64,000 bases of DNA from the NCBI GenBank assembly GCA_012513515.1, contig JAAZCA010000036.1, positions 1-64,000 of the forward strand, in the 5' to 3' direction. Positions 38,826-43,150 of this stretch are shown one piece after another. Within the stretch, counting starts at the first letter, position 1. The number at the start of each line of letters is the position of its first letter. The notes beneath the pieces were generated by a model, which was not told the origin of the DNA, made no database searches, and worked only from the letters and a program-made list of their open reading frames with translations. The position numbers were made by a program, and so were the translations under genes. The DNA is from Myxococcales bacterium. GTDB lineage: Bacteria > UBA10199 > 2-02-FULL-44-16 > JAAZCA01.

Positions 38826-40796
38826 CTATATCCCTGCTCCGAGAGTTACCCAGTAACTCCTGCGAGGGAGAGGAAATCCCCTTGCATCGTATATCTGCAC
38901 GTTGGTCACGTCCCTGACCTCGGCGGTAGCAAAGAAATGCTTTGCGAATTTCACAGTGGTTCCCAGATCTATTGCTGTATGCTGCGAGATCCAAACCGTG
39001 TTTGATGTATTGGATGGAAAGGATCCGATGTAGTGCAGCGTGCCGAAAAGGATCACTGGTTTTATCGTTCCGCGTACGCCTACGTTCAACTTGTGTTCAG
39101 GCCTTCCCGGCAATCTAAGCCTTCCTCCGGCGAATTTTGCATCCATCCATGAATAGTTTGCTTCCAGGTGAAGCTGCTTAACAGGATCCATGCTGATGCC
39201 AACCTCGACGCCATTCGTGATGGCCTTGTTCGTATTGACAGGCTCGATCGTAGTGGCGGAGATCGGTACGAAGATGATCTGATTCTCGATTCGATTCTGA
39301 AAAAAGGAAAATTCGAGGCTCACGTACTTTGGGCCTATTATGAATCCGGCATCGAAGTTTAGTGAATGTTCGTCTTTCAGTCGCGGGTTTCCACGCAGAT
39401 ACCCCTGGTCTGGATAGTACAGTTCGGAAAAATTTGGGTATCGGTATGCGGTCTGGACGTTTGATTTTAGAGTCAGCCATGGCAGCGGTTTCCCCGACAA
39501 TCCGACGCGCCAGCTCGCCCGAAATTTCCTGGAGGTTGCCTTCTCCAGACGTATCTGAGGAGATAGTATAAGCCTGTCGCCGAGAAATCCGACCACCTCT
39601 TCCAGAAAAAATGTGCCGGTATTCCGGGTATGGCTTCCCATGGTAGGGGTGGATGGTATCGGCGAGAGATCTTTTGCGTGATCGAATCTGTATTGTCCTC
39701 TTGCGGTGGATGCTAAATTTATACTGCGCCACGATGCGATGTGCATGACCTGCGCGTGCGCCTCCGGCGTGTAGCTTATGTAGGTCACGTCTATAGGATT
39801 TCCTATTGCAGGAGTGGGGTCCTTGAAATGGTCGTCATCGAAGAAGAATGTCGCGCCGCTTTGAAAGGAGAGCGGATCCATGAAAAATTTTTCAATTTCA
39901 AAGAGTACGTTAGATGTGTTTCGAAATATCTCCTGTTTGGCTTCCAGAGGATTTGTCGGGCTAAGCAGGGTGGTTTCTTCCTCCATCCCGGGAACTTCTC
40001 TATTCGTCCAGAAAAAGTCATTTGCTAGCGATATCTTCGTATTTTCAGAAAGCCTGATCCTTCCTTTGACGAGTACATTTTCGGCTATCGAACGGTTGTT
40101 TTCACGAGTCAGCGTCCTTGAAGCGCCGATTCTTCCTCCTGCCATGTTTACCGCCGCAGTTTTGAAGGTGAAGTCTCCCGCGGTAGACCTGTGGCTGTGC
40201 GCTAGAGTCATATCTCCGTTTTTAAATGGTTCCGACCAGGATTCGGCGGTCTTGAGAGTTAGGAAGGATCCTCCGGTCAGCTTTACATCGATGGAACGCT
40301 TGTCATGTGCTTCTTTGGTGACGATGTTGATCACCCCGCCTATGGCGTCGGTGCCGAAGCGCGCCGACGTCGCTCCGCGTATAACCTCGATTCGTTCTAT
40401 GGCATCTAGAGGGATTGTGGAAAAATCCACTGCGCCGAAGGTGGAAGAGTTGAGCCTGACACCATCGACAAAAACCGCAACCTGCTCCGCTGATGAGCCT
40501 CGTATAGATACGGTAGAGAGTTGTCCTTCGCCGCCGAGATTTGTCACGTCGACTCCGAGAGTTTCAGAGAGGATCTCTGAGGTGGTCTTCGACTGGTCGA
40601 AGTATTTGTCAGGTTTTATGATTGTAGCGAATGAGCCGGTGCTTTCGAGAGATTCGTATTCGTTTCTCCCCTTTATCTGGATTTCGCCGATGTCGGCGCT
40701 ATCGCTTGCCTTCGAGGGCAGAGGTGCGCACAGGAGAAGGATCAAAAAAATAAACCTCCTCCGCTGGAGAAGGTTTTGTGTGAAGCGAGGCTTCAT
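38826..40796 (-). CDS. btuB: TonB-dependent cobalamin receptor
   Basis: A 656-residue outer membrane receptor. After a signal peptide (about 10-30, ending near SKASD) comes a possible TonB box region (ADIGEIQIKG) and the plug with ILSETLGVDVTNLGGEGQL, VSIRGSSAEQVAVFVDGVRLN and IERIEVIRGATSARFGTDAIGGVINI, close to BtuB. The 22-strand barrel follows and contains the late motif RNVTNVQIYDARGFPLPRRSY (pattern DVTNxxYxxxxGYPxPGR) before a short end. The start at 40796 follows GAGGGAG; the frame extends 56 codons upstream through the riboswitch and is not used. No tonB, exbB or exbD is in the window. Confidence 0.93.
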   Translation of the reverse strand: MKPRFTQNLLQRRRFIFLILLLCAPLPSKASDSADIGEIQIKGRNEYESLESTGSFATIIKPDKYFDQSKTTSEILSETLGVDVTNLGGEGQLSTVSIRGSSAEQVAVFVDGVRLNSSTFGAVDFSTIPLDAIERIEVIRGATSARFGTDAIGGVINIVTKEAHDKRSIDVKLTGGSFLTLKTAESWSEPFKNGDMTLAHSHRSTAGDFTFKTAAVNMAGGRIGASRTLTRENNRSIAENVLVKGRIRLSENTKISLANDFFWTNREVPGMEEETTLLSPTNPLEAKQEIFRNTSNVLFEIEKFFMDPLSFQSGATFFFDDDHFKDPTPAIGNPIDVTYISYTPEAHAQVMHIASWRSINLASTARGQYRFDHAKDLSPIPSTPTMGSHTRNTGTFFLEEVVGFLGDRLILSPQIRLEKATSRKFRASWRVGLSGKPLPWLTLKSNVQTAYRYPNFSELYYPDQGYLRGNPRLKDEHSLNFDAGFIIGPKYVSLEFSFFQNRIENQIIFVPISATTIEPVNTNKAITNGVEVGISMDPVKQLHLEANYSWMDAKFAGGRLRLPGRPEHKLNVGVRGTIKPVILFGTLHYIGSFPSNTSNTVWISQHTAIDLGTTVKFAKHFFATAEVRDVTNVQIYDARGFPLPRRSYWVTLGAGI

Positions 40797-40832
40797 GCGC
40801 TCCCTCTTTCCGCGAAGAGTTGCAGCTTGAAA

Positions 40833-40986
40833 ATGCGGCGCAAGGTTTCCTGGCTTCGAGGGGATCTCTTTTTGCCTCGCCTTCCCGCCCCGCGGTAGGC
40901 GGGACAGTGACTTGCGGCAGAAGGGTGTTCCTCTTACAGTGGCGGGACCGCGCGGGATTTTCACCCGGCTTCCCTTGAACGTCGAA
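40833..40986 (-). promoter_or_regulatory. Cobalamin (AdoCbl) riboswitch
   Basis: On the minus strand, directly before btuB, the leader contains GGGTGAAAATCCC, then GCGGTCCCGCCACTGTAA, later AAGTCACTGTCCCGC, GGGAAGGCGAG, and finally GAAGCCAGGAAACCTTGCGCC: the conserved elements of the B12 riboswitch in order. Ligand binding would shut down the whole operon btuB-lipoproteins-btuFCD. Boundaries are approximate. Confidence 0.95.
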
Positions 40987-41005
40987 TCAGCAAATTGTGC
41001 GGCAT

Positions 41006-41034
41006 CACTAACAGGAAGGGATATCGCTTGTCAA
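41006..41034 (-). promoter_or_regulatory. Candidate promoter of the B12 operon
   Basis: On the minus strand TTGACA occupies 41034-41029; about 16 bases on, GTTAGT (near 41012-41007) is the best -10 match, which is weak. The site sits just upstream of the riboswitch, where a promoter is required. Confidence 0.35.
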
Positions 41035-41763: not shown

Positions 41764-42139
41764 AGTGTTTAACCTTTTGATATTACTGAATATTGTTGTG
41801 AATGTGGCGGGCGTTATGGTGCGGCTCAATTTCCTTGAAAATGTAGGTGCAATCGGTTAGCTTCCGCCGCCATTTGATCGGCGGTACCGTTTTTTGAAAT
41901 TGGATTCGTATTTTTGTTGTCATCCCCGCATGGTTTTGGCGGGGATCCAAAAACTGCCGTGACTTTTTCGAGGTTCGATGGTCGAAAACAGGAAGTGTTG
42001 GAACTGGATTGCTTCGCTTGGCGCTCGCAATGACGGCGAGTGTGTCATCGCGCTATGCTCACCAACGGTTTAGTGGCGGGCAATGCTGGCTCCGCCATTA
42101 ATGCGTCGGCAGGTGCTCGATTTGACAGCAGCTTTTTGT
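41764..42139. other. Gene-free stretch before the tRNA cluster
   Basis: No credible protein gene. It contains the dispersed-repeat-like block at 41917-42040 and GC-rich short inverted repeats near 41810-41890 (GGCGG...CCGCC). The remaining sequence shows no promoter or RNA that I can name. It marks the start of a roughly 1.4-kb region (to 43150) with only RNA genes and repeats. Confidence 0.5.
41917..42040. repeat. Dispersed intergenic repeat-like block
   Basis: It begins TGTCATCCCCGC with an 8-bp stem (41922-41929 with 41939-41946) and ends with CTGGATTGCTTCGCTTGG followed by CGCTCGCAATGACGG, a sequence form seen as multi-copy intergenic repeats in many proteobacterial genomes. Only one copy is in the window, so repetition in this genome is inferred. 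Confidence 0.5.
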
Positions 42140-42222
42140 GGGCGCATAACTCAGCGGAAGAGTGCGATCCTCACACGGTCGAAGTCGCAGGTTCAAACCC
42201 TGCTGCGCCCACAAAAAGCTGC
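42128..42222. repeat. 19-bp perfect inverted repeat enclosing tRNA-Val
   Basis: The arms 42128-42146 and 42204-42222 are perfect reverse complements. They comprise the seven acceptor-stem pairs of tRNA-Val plus twelve further base pairs outside the mature tRNA (GCAGCTTTTTGT with ACAAAAAGCTGC). Confidence 0.9.
42140..42211 (+). tRNA. tRNA-Val (anticodon CAC)
   Basis: A 72-nt cloverleaf: acceptor GGGCGCA/TGCGCCC, D stem ACTC/GAGT, anticodon stem CGATC/GGTCG with loop CTCACAC (anticodon CAC), T arm GCAGG-TTCAAAC-CCTGC, discriminator A. CCA is not encoded. It is the first gene of a three-tRNA cluster. Confidence 0.92.
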
Positions 42223-42234
42223 GCCAAATCGGGA

Positions 42235-42257
42235 GTTCAAACCCAGCAACGCCCACA
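42235..42257 (+). pseudogene. Duplicated 3' end of tRNA-Val
   Basis: These 23 bases match 42191-42213 of tRNA-Val (T-loop through the 3' end) with three substitutions: GTTCAAACCC then AGCAACGCCCACA. No 5' portion is present. Such 3'-end copies are typical leftovers of integrase attachment, but no integrase is nearby. Confidence 0.7.
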
Positions 42258-42290: not shown

Positions 42291-42362
42291 GCCCCCGTAG
42301 CTCAGTGGATAGAGTACCTGCCTCCGGAGCAGGTTGCGCAGGTTCGATTCCTGCCGGGGGCG
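42291..42362 (+). tRNA. tRNA-Arg (anticodon CCG)
   Basis: A full cloverleaf: acceptor GCCCCCG/CGGGGGC, D arm GCTC-AGTGGATA-GAGT with A20, anticodon stem CCTGC/GCAGG with loop CTCCGGA (anticodon CCG), T arm GCAGG-TTCGATT-CCTGC, discriminator G, no encoded CCA. Confidence 0.94.
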
Positions 42363-42466
42363 CAGGAGATTTGTTGTGCGGATATCCCCTCTATTTTCCA
42401 TTTTCTATTTTCGTAAAATGGGAAACAGGAAATTGAAAATGGGCGGAAATTTGTAAAACGGATTTT

Positions 42467-42502
42467 GGGGCAGTAGCTCAGCTTAAGAGAGCACCACGTT
42501 CG
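42467..42502 (+). pseudogene. 5' half of a tRNA-Ala-like gene, ending in the anticodon loop
   Basis: GGGGCAGTAGCTCAG, CTTAA, then GAGAGCACCACGTTCG follows tRNA-Ala (42598-42632) closely up to the anticodon loop and then stops matching. The D loop has lost GG. The 3' continuation appears at 42717-42823, beyond the intact tRNA-Ala. Confidence 0.75.
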
Positions 42503-42597
42503 TCCCGACGTCCGCATTCCTCCGTAGGCGGGATTTGCGGCGTCGAGGATCCTCGATGTGACTGACAATTTTTTGCTTTACCCCTTATGGGTTGAGA

Positions 42598-42670
42598 GGG
42601 GCACTAGCTCAGTTGGGAGAGCACCACGTTCGCAACGTGGGGGTCGAGGGTTCGAATCCCTTGTGCTCCA
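42598..42670 (+). tRNA. tRNA-Ala (anticodon CGC)
   Basis: A 73-nt cloverleaf: acceptor GGGGCAC/GTGCTCC with the alanine identity pair G3-U70, D arm GCTC-AGTTGGGA-GAGC, anticodon stem CCACG/CGTGG with loop TTCGCAA (anticodon CGC), T arm GAGGG-TTCGAAT-CCCTT, discriminator A. CCA is not encoded. Confidence 0.94.
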
Positions 42671-42716
42671 CTGAGCCCACGAGGGCGTGAAGCGAAAAAT
42701 TGTGCCACATCGGGAC

Positions 42717-42823
42717 AAGTGGGGGCCAAGGGTTCGAACGAACAAATGTTATGATGCGTGAGGGCGAAGCCCGGAACAAATAGCCCTGATCATCAGAACG
42801 AAGTGACAATCCCTTCTACTCCA
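42717..42823 (+). pseudogene. 3' half of a tRNA-Ala-like gene, interrupted in the T loop
   Basis: AAGTGGGGGCCAAGGGTTCGAA (42717-42738) matches tRNA-Ala from just after the anticodon loop, with three differences. After 69 unrelated bases (42739-42807), AATCCCTTCTACTCCA (42808-42823) supplies the rest of the T arm and acceptor. It pairs logically with the 5' half at 42467-42502. Confidence 0.7.
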
Positions 42824-42832
42824 CAAAAAAGA

Positions 42833-42870
42833 AAAGGGTCGCTGGTTTTTTGGCGGCCCCTTTCTTTTTT
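42833..42870 (+). terminator. Rho-independent terminator after the tRNA cluster
   Basis: AAAAGGGTCGC and GCGGCCCCTTT form an imperfect stem around TGGTTTTTTG, followed by CTTTTTT ending at 42870. It lies directly after the tRNA-Ala fragments and would end the tRNA transcript. From 42871 to 43150 I see only AT-rich leader sequence for the next gene. Confidence 0.7.
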
Positions 42871-43150
42871 GGTGGGGTTGAGGATGAGAACCGCAGCCGC
42901 AAGGTTGCCGGTTCCGACGCCCGACCATGTGAGGCGATTCTTTTATTCTTGAATTTTGCAGACTTCAGATCCTCAGATTAAATGCTATTCAAAGATCAAA
43001 TCCGTACGATTGTCTCTTGTTTTGTACATCTGAACAATTTATTGACGCTTGAAGTCTATAGTGTAAGTAGATCCTATATTGCAGATTTTGGACAAGACCG
43101 TAAGAGCCTGTGACAAATCAAATCGGAAATAAAACACAAATAGCGATTGC

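Follow-up and report, generated by a model that had tools for sequence, protein, structure and literature searches.

The window analysed here, a 64-kb stretch (64,000 nucleotides) of contig JAAZCA010000036.1 from a Myxococcales bacterium, contains a tRNA-Ala gene that is broken in its anticodon loop and in its T loop, with a second, intact tRNA-Ala gene lying inside the first break. This arrangement is probably best explained by two small hairpin insertions into a redundant resident tRNA-Ala gene, namely a tRNA-bearing palindromic double hairpin, here called element E, in the anticodon loop and a 69-bp element, here called TI, in the T loop. The same nested anatomy recurs over several tRNA isotypes and genera, the breakpoints lie in tRNA loops, the stems of E have evolved as a DNA palindrome, and E is nearly confined to tRNA sequences, in or beside them. 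Judging from sequence comparison, E appears to be mobile.

Three intact tRNA genes were called in the window by ARAGORN and Rfam: Val(CAC) (42140-42212), Arg(CCG) (42291-42363) and Ala(CGC) (42598-42671). Sequence and repeats revealed the second, broken tRNA-Ala as three pieces around the intact tRNA-Ala (42467-42502, 42716-42738 and 42808-42824), the 5' part of which reads GGGGCAGTAGCTCAG...CACCACGTTCG. An initial annotation had described a tRNA-Ala split around an intact tRNA-Ala(CGC), with a 69-base break in the T loop; the split was borne out by the sequence, ARAGORN and Rfam, and the break was found at 42739-42807. The 3' half does resume beyond the intact tRNA, but at 42716, one base earlier than the 42717 proposed. 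Two points had been missed: the insert in the T loop is a dispersed element in its own right, and the neighbouring tRNA-Val is nested in the same manner.

In the raw locus the intact gene was the sole tRNA-Ala called by ARAGORN. When both inserts were deleted the outer tRNA-Ala was called too, with a two-base anticodon ('cg'), because one base of the anticodon loop/stem is missing. The acceptor pair 7:66 is G:C in the outer gene, a state shared with intact tRNA-Ala in G005 and G007, and C:G in the inner gene, as in G001, G002 and G004 (G000 is the genome of the window; G001-G005, G007, G017 and G031 are other genomes compared, and the relatives' genomes are mostly draft assemblies). The two outer ends therefore belong with each other, and for the same reason the inner and outer tRNA-Ala are no very recent duplication here. 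In G007 the tRNA order Val-Arg-Ala is as in the window, but the tRNA-Ala is single and uninterrupted, which should be the look of the empty state. On sequence grounds, the inner tRNA-Ala is taken to be the functional gene and the outer one a pseudogene.

Element E occupies 213 bp (42503-42715) inside the anticodon loop of the outer tRNA-Ala, starting with TCCCGA and ending with TCGGGA (inverted repeat I15); the segment was assigned to E from its ends, arms and context. The second of its two hairpins spans TCCTCGATGTG... to ...CACATCGGGA, folds with -90.0 kcal/mol and has the intact tRNA-Ala as its tip.

The nested layout, i.e. a 5' part, a hairpin arm, an intact tRNA of the same isotype, a hairpin arm and a 3' part, whole or partly decayed, was found in at least ten cases besides the tRNA-Ala of the window (Val, Ala, Gly, Pro, Asp, Arg and Met), in G000 and its relatives. 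The loci are tRNA-Ala and tRNA-Val of the window, L149 (Val), L139 (Ala), L155 (Val), L156 (Gly), L165 (Pro) and L147 (Asp), and further L151 (Arg), L235 (Arg) and, in family f5, L328 (Met). G000 itself has nested Gly(TCC), Pro(TGG), Asp and Arg(CCT), and G003 has nested Val and Arg(CCT), some of them decayed on one side; a tRNA(CAT) of G031, from another family, shows the layout as well. In G005 (L149) a tRNA-Val is perfectly nested, the outer halves equal the inner tRNA exactly, and the joined halves give an intact tRNA-Val. In the tRNA-Ala of G002 all three loops are occupied: the D loop by E together with the intact tRNA, the anticodon loop by a TI in reversed orientation, and the T loop by an insert that has decayed. 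Inner and outer isotypes were identical in every nested case in which both were readable.

The tRNA-Ala(CGC) of G003 (L155 650-916, L141) is apparently interrupted in the D, anticodon and T loops, with no intact copy in the loci compared; this may reflect an assembly gap, since contigs break inside TI. Leader and trailer are complementary over 10-19 nt, lengthening the acceptor stem, at many tRNAs (L199, L207, L224, L218, L155), frequently at nested loci and not only there.

A covariance model built on six copies of E gave matches in 9 of the 46 genomes of the class. Copies without cargo measure 90-112 bp. The junction motif of E has three sites in the whole genome G000, every one at a tRNA (Asp, Ala, Arg), and all three sites in G005 are at tRNAs. 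The flanks of most copies, when joined, restore a tRNA sequence, the usual junction being D-loop position 15^16 (14-15^15-16 in Met, Gly, Val, Ala and His-like tRNA; also Leu 18^19 and Met 19^20); the exception is a weak match in G004 without such flanks, and one G017 copy was left out of the flank check.

Of the 43 pairs in the alignment of these six copies, 20 were changed on both sides. Such double-sided changes amounted to 40 cells versus a mean of 12.4 after shuffling, a value not reached in any of 500 shuffles, while 96.5% of the cells were paired and just 3 of 256 were G-U. RNA helices usually evolve via G-U intermediates; the near absence of G-U in the stems of E therefore indicates a DNA palindrome and not an RNA helix, and readings of E as RNA, whether a folded structure or an intron, were rejected on this ground. 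The palindrome is probably maintained by selection or by palindrome correction.

Fragments of tRNA genes were counted at 152 tRNA loci of seven genomes under a single fixed threshold (score of at least 14 within 500 nt). Cognate fragments on the same strand were present at 32 loci and antisense ones at a single locus, whereas swapped, non-cognate tRNAs on the same flanks gave 4, 2 and 0 loci; the cognate fragments therefore exceed chance. All 16 fragments with a 5' end lay upstream, and 17 of 18 with a 3' end downstream. Most of the 5' fragments stop within positions 14-20 (nine) or 33-38 (four), the 3' fragments start mostly at 52-62 and also at 35/39, and the breakpoints concentrate in the D, anticodon and T loops.

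Matches to the TI model numbered one in G000, one in G002, five in G003 and nineteen in G001. The TI of the window is 81-86% identical to copies in G001 and G003, and TI is restricted to the window genome's own family of genomes. Some copies in G001 lie away from tRNAs, preceded by CAA and followed by AA, and AA-type flanks are kept elsewhere; TI is therefore regarded as a dispersed repeat of the repetitive extragenic palindromic (REP) kind that enters T loops as well. Copies in G001 (L142, L143/L213, L144, L314) are flanked by AACGCAAGCAA-like repeats, the inverted-repeat partners of TTGCTTGCGTT. TI was also considered as a pseudoknotted ribozyme; this was rejected, as the crossing helix is not preserved in the copies of alignment A1 and RNAalifold gave short hairpins only. 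Comparison of the inserts with Rfam at gathering and permissive thresholds yielded nothing credible and no intron match, the weak microRNA-type matches being dismissed as chance hairpins.

Structured inserts of two further types were seen at other tRNA genes. One type ends at T-loop position 57 and forms a three-fold array behind the tRNA-Ala of G004 (L148 1999-2360), where every structured insert has behind it the final 18 bases of either tRNA-Arg or tRNA-Ala, plus a terminator. This array stands behind intact tRNAs, has three tRNA-Ala 3' ends in succession and resembles the tyrT terminal repeats (RtT) of E. coli, which are tandem units downstream of a tRNA, each with a copy of the tRNA 3' end. 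The likeness lies in tandem units behind a tRNA that hold its 3' end; RtT occur only downstream, whereas here upstream 5' fragments and whole nested tRNAs are found, and Rfam scans of the inserts gave no match to RtT. The other type, about 107 nt long (..GGATGCGAATCCCTGGAGTGCGAGGCA..GCTGAGCGGTTACG..), lies in the anticodon loop; it was seen in 5' fragments of tRNA-Thr, there between positions 33 and 34, of tRNA-Leu and of tRNA-Gln (L158, L224, L178). The T-loop insert type TI2, counted as the third insert family, has subtypes that align poorly and is represented by a truncated copy (GATGAGAACCGCAGCCGCAAGG...) at 42880-42950 of the window, beyond the terminator of the outer tRNA-Ala. The features of the nested tRNA-Val and tRNA-Ala loci are listed in Table 1.

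Table 1. Features of the nested tRNA-Val and tRNA-Ala loci in the window
Feature	Position	Strand	Evidence and remarks
Left hairpin arm ahead of tRNA-Val (CTCGATTTGACAGCAGCTTTTTGT)	42116..42139	+	Inverted repeat I1, 19 nt perfect; fold -63.0
tRNA-Val(CAC), second nested tRNA of the window	42140..42212	+	ARAGORN, Rfam; same layout in G005 L149
Right hairpin arm behind tRNA-Val (...GCTGCGCCAAATCGGGA)	42213..42234	+	Inverted repeat; fold
Decayed 3' half of outer tRNA-Val	42235..42257	+	Direct repeat D1, 78%
Outer (broken) tRNA-Ala, positions 1-35 with one extra D-loop base, anticodon-loop end ...TTCG	42467..42502	+	Sequence; repeats D5/D7; tRNA call once inserts are removed
Element E, hairpin 1 (TCCCGACGTCCGC...GCGGCGTCGAGGA)	42503..42549	+	Fold -25.3 kcal/mol; E model match, E 0.002; similar copies G000:C23, G017
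Element E, hairpin 2, left arm (TCCTCGATGTGACTGACAATTTTTTGC...)	42550..42597	+	Inverted repeat I2, 85%; runs straight into acceptor stem of inner tRNA
Inner intact tRNA-Ala(CGC)	42598..42671	+	ARAGORN; Rfam tRNA 65.3 bits; about 99% identity to G004 tRNA-Ala
Element E, hairpin 2, right arm (...GCGAAAAATTGTGCCACATCGGGA)	42672..42715	+	Inverted repeats I2, I15; 21-nt repeat D3 in common with tRNA-Val flank
Outer tRNA-Ala, 3' side of anticodon loop through to T loop (CAAGTGGGGGCCAAGGGTTCGAA)	42716..42738	+	Direct repeat D2, 90%; sequence
TI element in T loop of outer tRNA-Ala (CGAAC...GTGAC, flanked AA/AA), 69 bp	42739..42807	+	TI model, 80.9 bits
Outer tRNA-Ala, 3' end (T stem and acceptor strand; AATCCCTTCTACTCCAC)	42808..42824	+	Direct repeat D6, 88%
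Terminator-like hairpin behind outer tRNA-Ala	42824..42871	+	Inverted repeat I3

Elsewhere in the window, a REP-like palindrome of a common type (CGTCATTGCGAGCGCCAAGCGAAGCAATCCAG) was found at 41985-42035, and a cobalamin riboswitch (40826-41013, minus strand) ahead of a TonB-dependent receptor gene (38826-40964, minus strand).

The favoured course of events would begin with a resident tRNA-Ala gene that had turned redundant and was then invaded two times: first by E, whose second hairpin was tipped by a complete tRNA-Ala and which entered the anticodon loop at the step from position 35 to 36, and second by the REP-like TI, in the T loop after AA. Small non-coding hairpin elements would favour the D, anticodon and T loops of tRNA genes as insertion sites, perhaps because folded tRNA-gene DNA exposes its loops in single-stranded form, e.g. 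on the lagging strand. An insertion that merely broke a single-copy tRNA gene would presumably be lost, while one that left or rebuilt an intact copy of the same isotype could survive, and the outer copy would then decay. The tRNA at the hairpin tip may have been brought in by E or copied from a sister gene by template switching in insertion or repair; given the constant match of isotypes, local copying would fit better than carriage by E. The suggestion of the initial annotation that a segment with a tRNA had gone into an older copy of such a gene is supported by the defined ends of E, its double hairpin, its relatives in other tRNA loops and the identical halves at L149.

Several observations weigh against this course of events. 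The window's own E is a weak match to the E model (E 0.002), some copies of E stand in a short 5' fragment that adjoins an intact tRNA instead of surrounding it, and the insert families TI2 and EL3 as well as tandem partial duplications also contribute to the pattern. A control set (genomes of the class without an E-model match, G031 and an outgroup) had fragments at 7 of 82 loci, a lower background which means that part of the fragment pattern predates E or needs no E. No clear target-site duplication was found for E, L149 and the D-loop copies rejoining without doubled bases. Nor was a transposase or integrase linked to E, although a transposase gene with E ends was not searched for. With no linked enzyme, and no pair of empty and filled versions of one site among close strains, the movement of E can only be inferred. 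A Y1/RAYT transposase (PF01797) was present in six of the seven genomes searched, but also in 5 of 14 control genomes, and was therefore rejected as the mobiliser of E for want of specificity.

An origin by tandem partial duplication of tRNA genes (slippage or unequal exchange), followed by random decay and by later unrelated repeats in the useless copy, is considered unlikely, while having several loci on its side. The Thr locus L158 repeats leader and element, the first Gln copy at L254 is nearly complete with TI as its sole break, the three T-loop 3' ends of L148 follow one another in tandem fashion, and class members without E still show cognate fragments (the 7 of 82 loci above). Slippage is, however, unable to set an intact tRNA between hairpin arms in the loop of another copy, as at L149, L139, L328 and in the window, and random insertion would neither hit loops nor restrict E to tRNA sequence. 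A single unequal exchange, which the initial annotation had offered as an alternative, does not suffice, because it could not leave a complete tRNA flanked by hairpin arms within a loop. The locus is very unlikely to be the remnant of an integrative element that used a tRNA loop as the attachment (att) site for a tyrosine integrase and left an intact and a partial tRNA behind. Williams is said to have described in 2002 loop sublocations of integrases within tRNA genes, and the breakpoints seen here are in the same loops. Integrases are known for their use of tRNA genes, and a partial next to a complete tRNA copy is their usual att footprint, with breaks in tRNA loops (PMC9897764). Against such an origin, the inserts are shorter than 250 bp (69-230 bp; 213 and 69 bp in the window) and without coding capacity, one double hairpin is common to many isotypes, and fragments flank the intact tRNA on both sides with hairpin arms between, whereas an att footprint consists of one intact and one partial copy at two ends. 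There is no island, no integrase-like gene was present among the listed open reading frames around the locus, and no element of several kb with an integrase was found.

It is highly improbable that the outer tRNA works as a split or intron-containing tRNA from whose transcript the inserts are excised. The halves parted in the anticodon loop do recall archaeal split or permuted tRNAs and tRNA introns, the loop positions are like intron sites, and precise splicing would yield complete or near-complete outer tRNAs at L149 (Val), L254 (Gln) and L328 (Met). In contrast to those systems, intact tRNA copies exist, the outer copy has decayed, and the inserts match no intron or other family in Rfam. 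The outer tRNA-Ala of the window is short of one anticodon-loop base, so that the joined gene has only the two-base anticodon, other outer copies are truncated, and the stems of E show full base-pair swaps with hardly any G-U, unlike RNA helices. The functional split or nested tRNA, which the initial annotation had held unlikely but not excluded, finds no support.

Double-hairpin elements (DHE) are known from mitochondria and are not known to be tied to tRNA genes. The DHE of Allomyces, the repetitive hairpin elements (RHE) of sponges and the GC clusters of yeast are small non-coding palindromic repeats with single or double hairpins and conserved stem structure, which are thought to be mobile (PMC2800124, PMC4478555). 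Compared by description, E is like these mitochondrial elements in being a small non-coding palindrome with paired stems, formed of two adjoining stem-loops with conserved pairing; it differs in being bacterial, in its near-confinement to tRNA sequences and in having several copies with an intact tRNA at the hairpin tip. E has the terminal inverted repeats (TCCCGA/TCGGGA), the short length and the lack of genes of a miniature inverted-repeat transposable element (MITE). Like MITEs and like REPs and REP doublets forming hairpins (REPIN), which are mobilised by RAYT or insertion sequences (IS), it is a short gene-free palindrome, and TI is especially REP-like. REPs are of high copy number and scattered between genes, whereas E has few copies per genome, located in tRNA loops; the many dispersed intergenic copies of a REP/REPIN were not found for E, the three junction-motif sites of G000 all being tRNA loci. 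E resembles mitochondrial DHE, MITEs and REPs but is not filed as any of them, on account of the lack of target duplication, the few copies and the near-confinement to tRNAs.

The open-access literature searched yielded no account of bacterial hairpin elements nested with tRNAs, and a tiny hairpin element targeting tRNA loops is apparently an undescribed kind. It is tentatively proposed, as a possibility, that a new class of bacterial DNA-hairpin elements aims at tRNA-gene loops and carries or rebuilds the intact target tRNA at its own tip, by which insertion into an essential single-copy gene would become harmless.

The genes for tRNAs are classic landing sites of large mobile elements, which spare their host by restoring the tRNA. 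The gene-free elements of about 100 bp described here share this refuge in a different manner, by insertion into the D, anticodon or T loop, several of them with a whole tRNA at the tip. If its movement were confirmed, E would be a minimal example of a selfish element that spares tRNAs. It would then also generate tRNA fragments that mislead annotation, and would connect the choice of insertion site with the folding of single-stranded DNA in a way open to testing.
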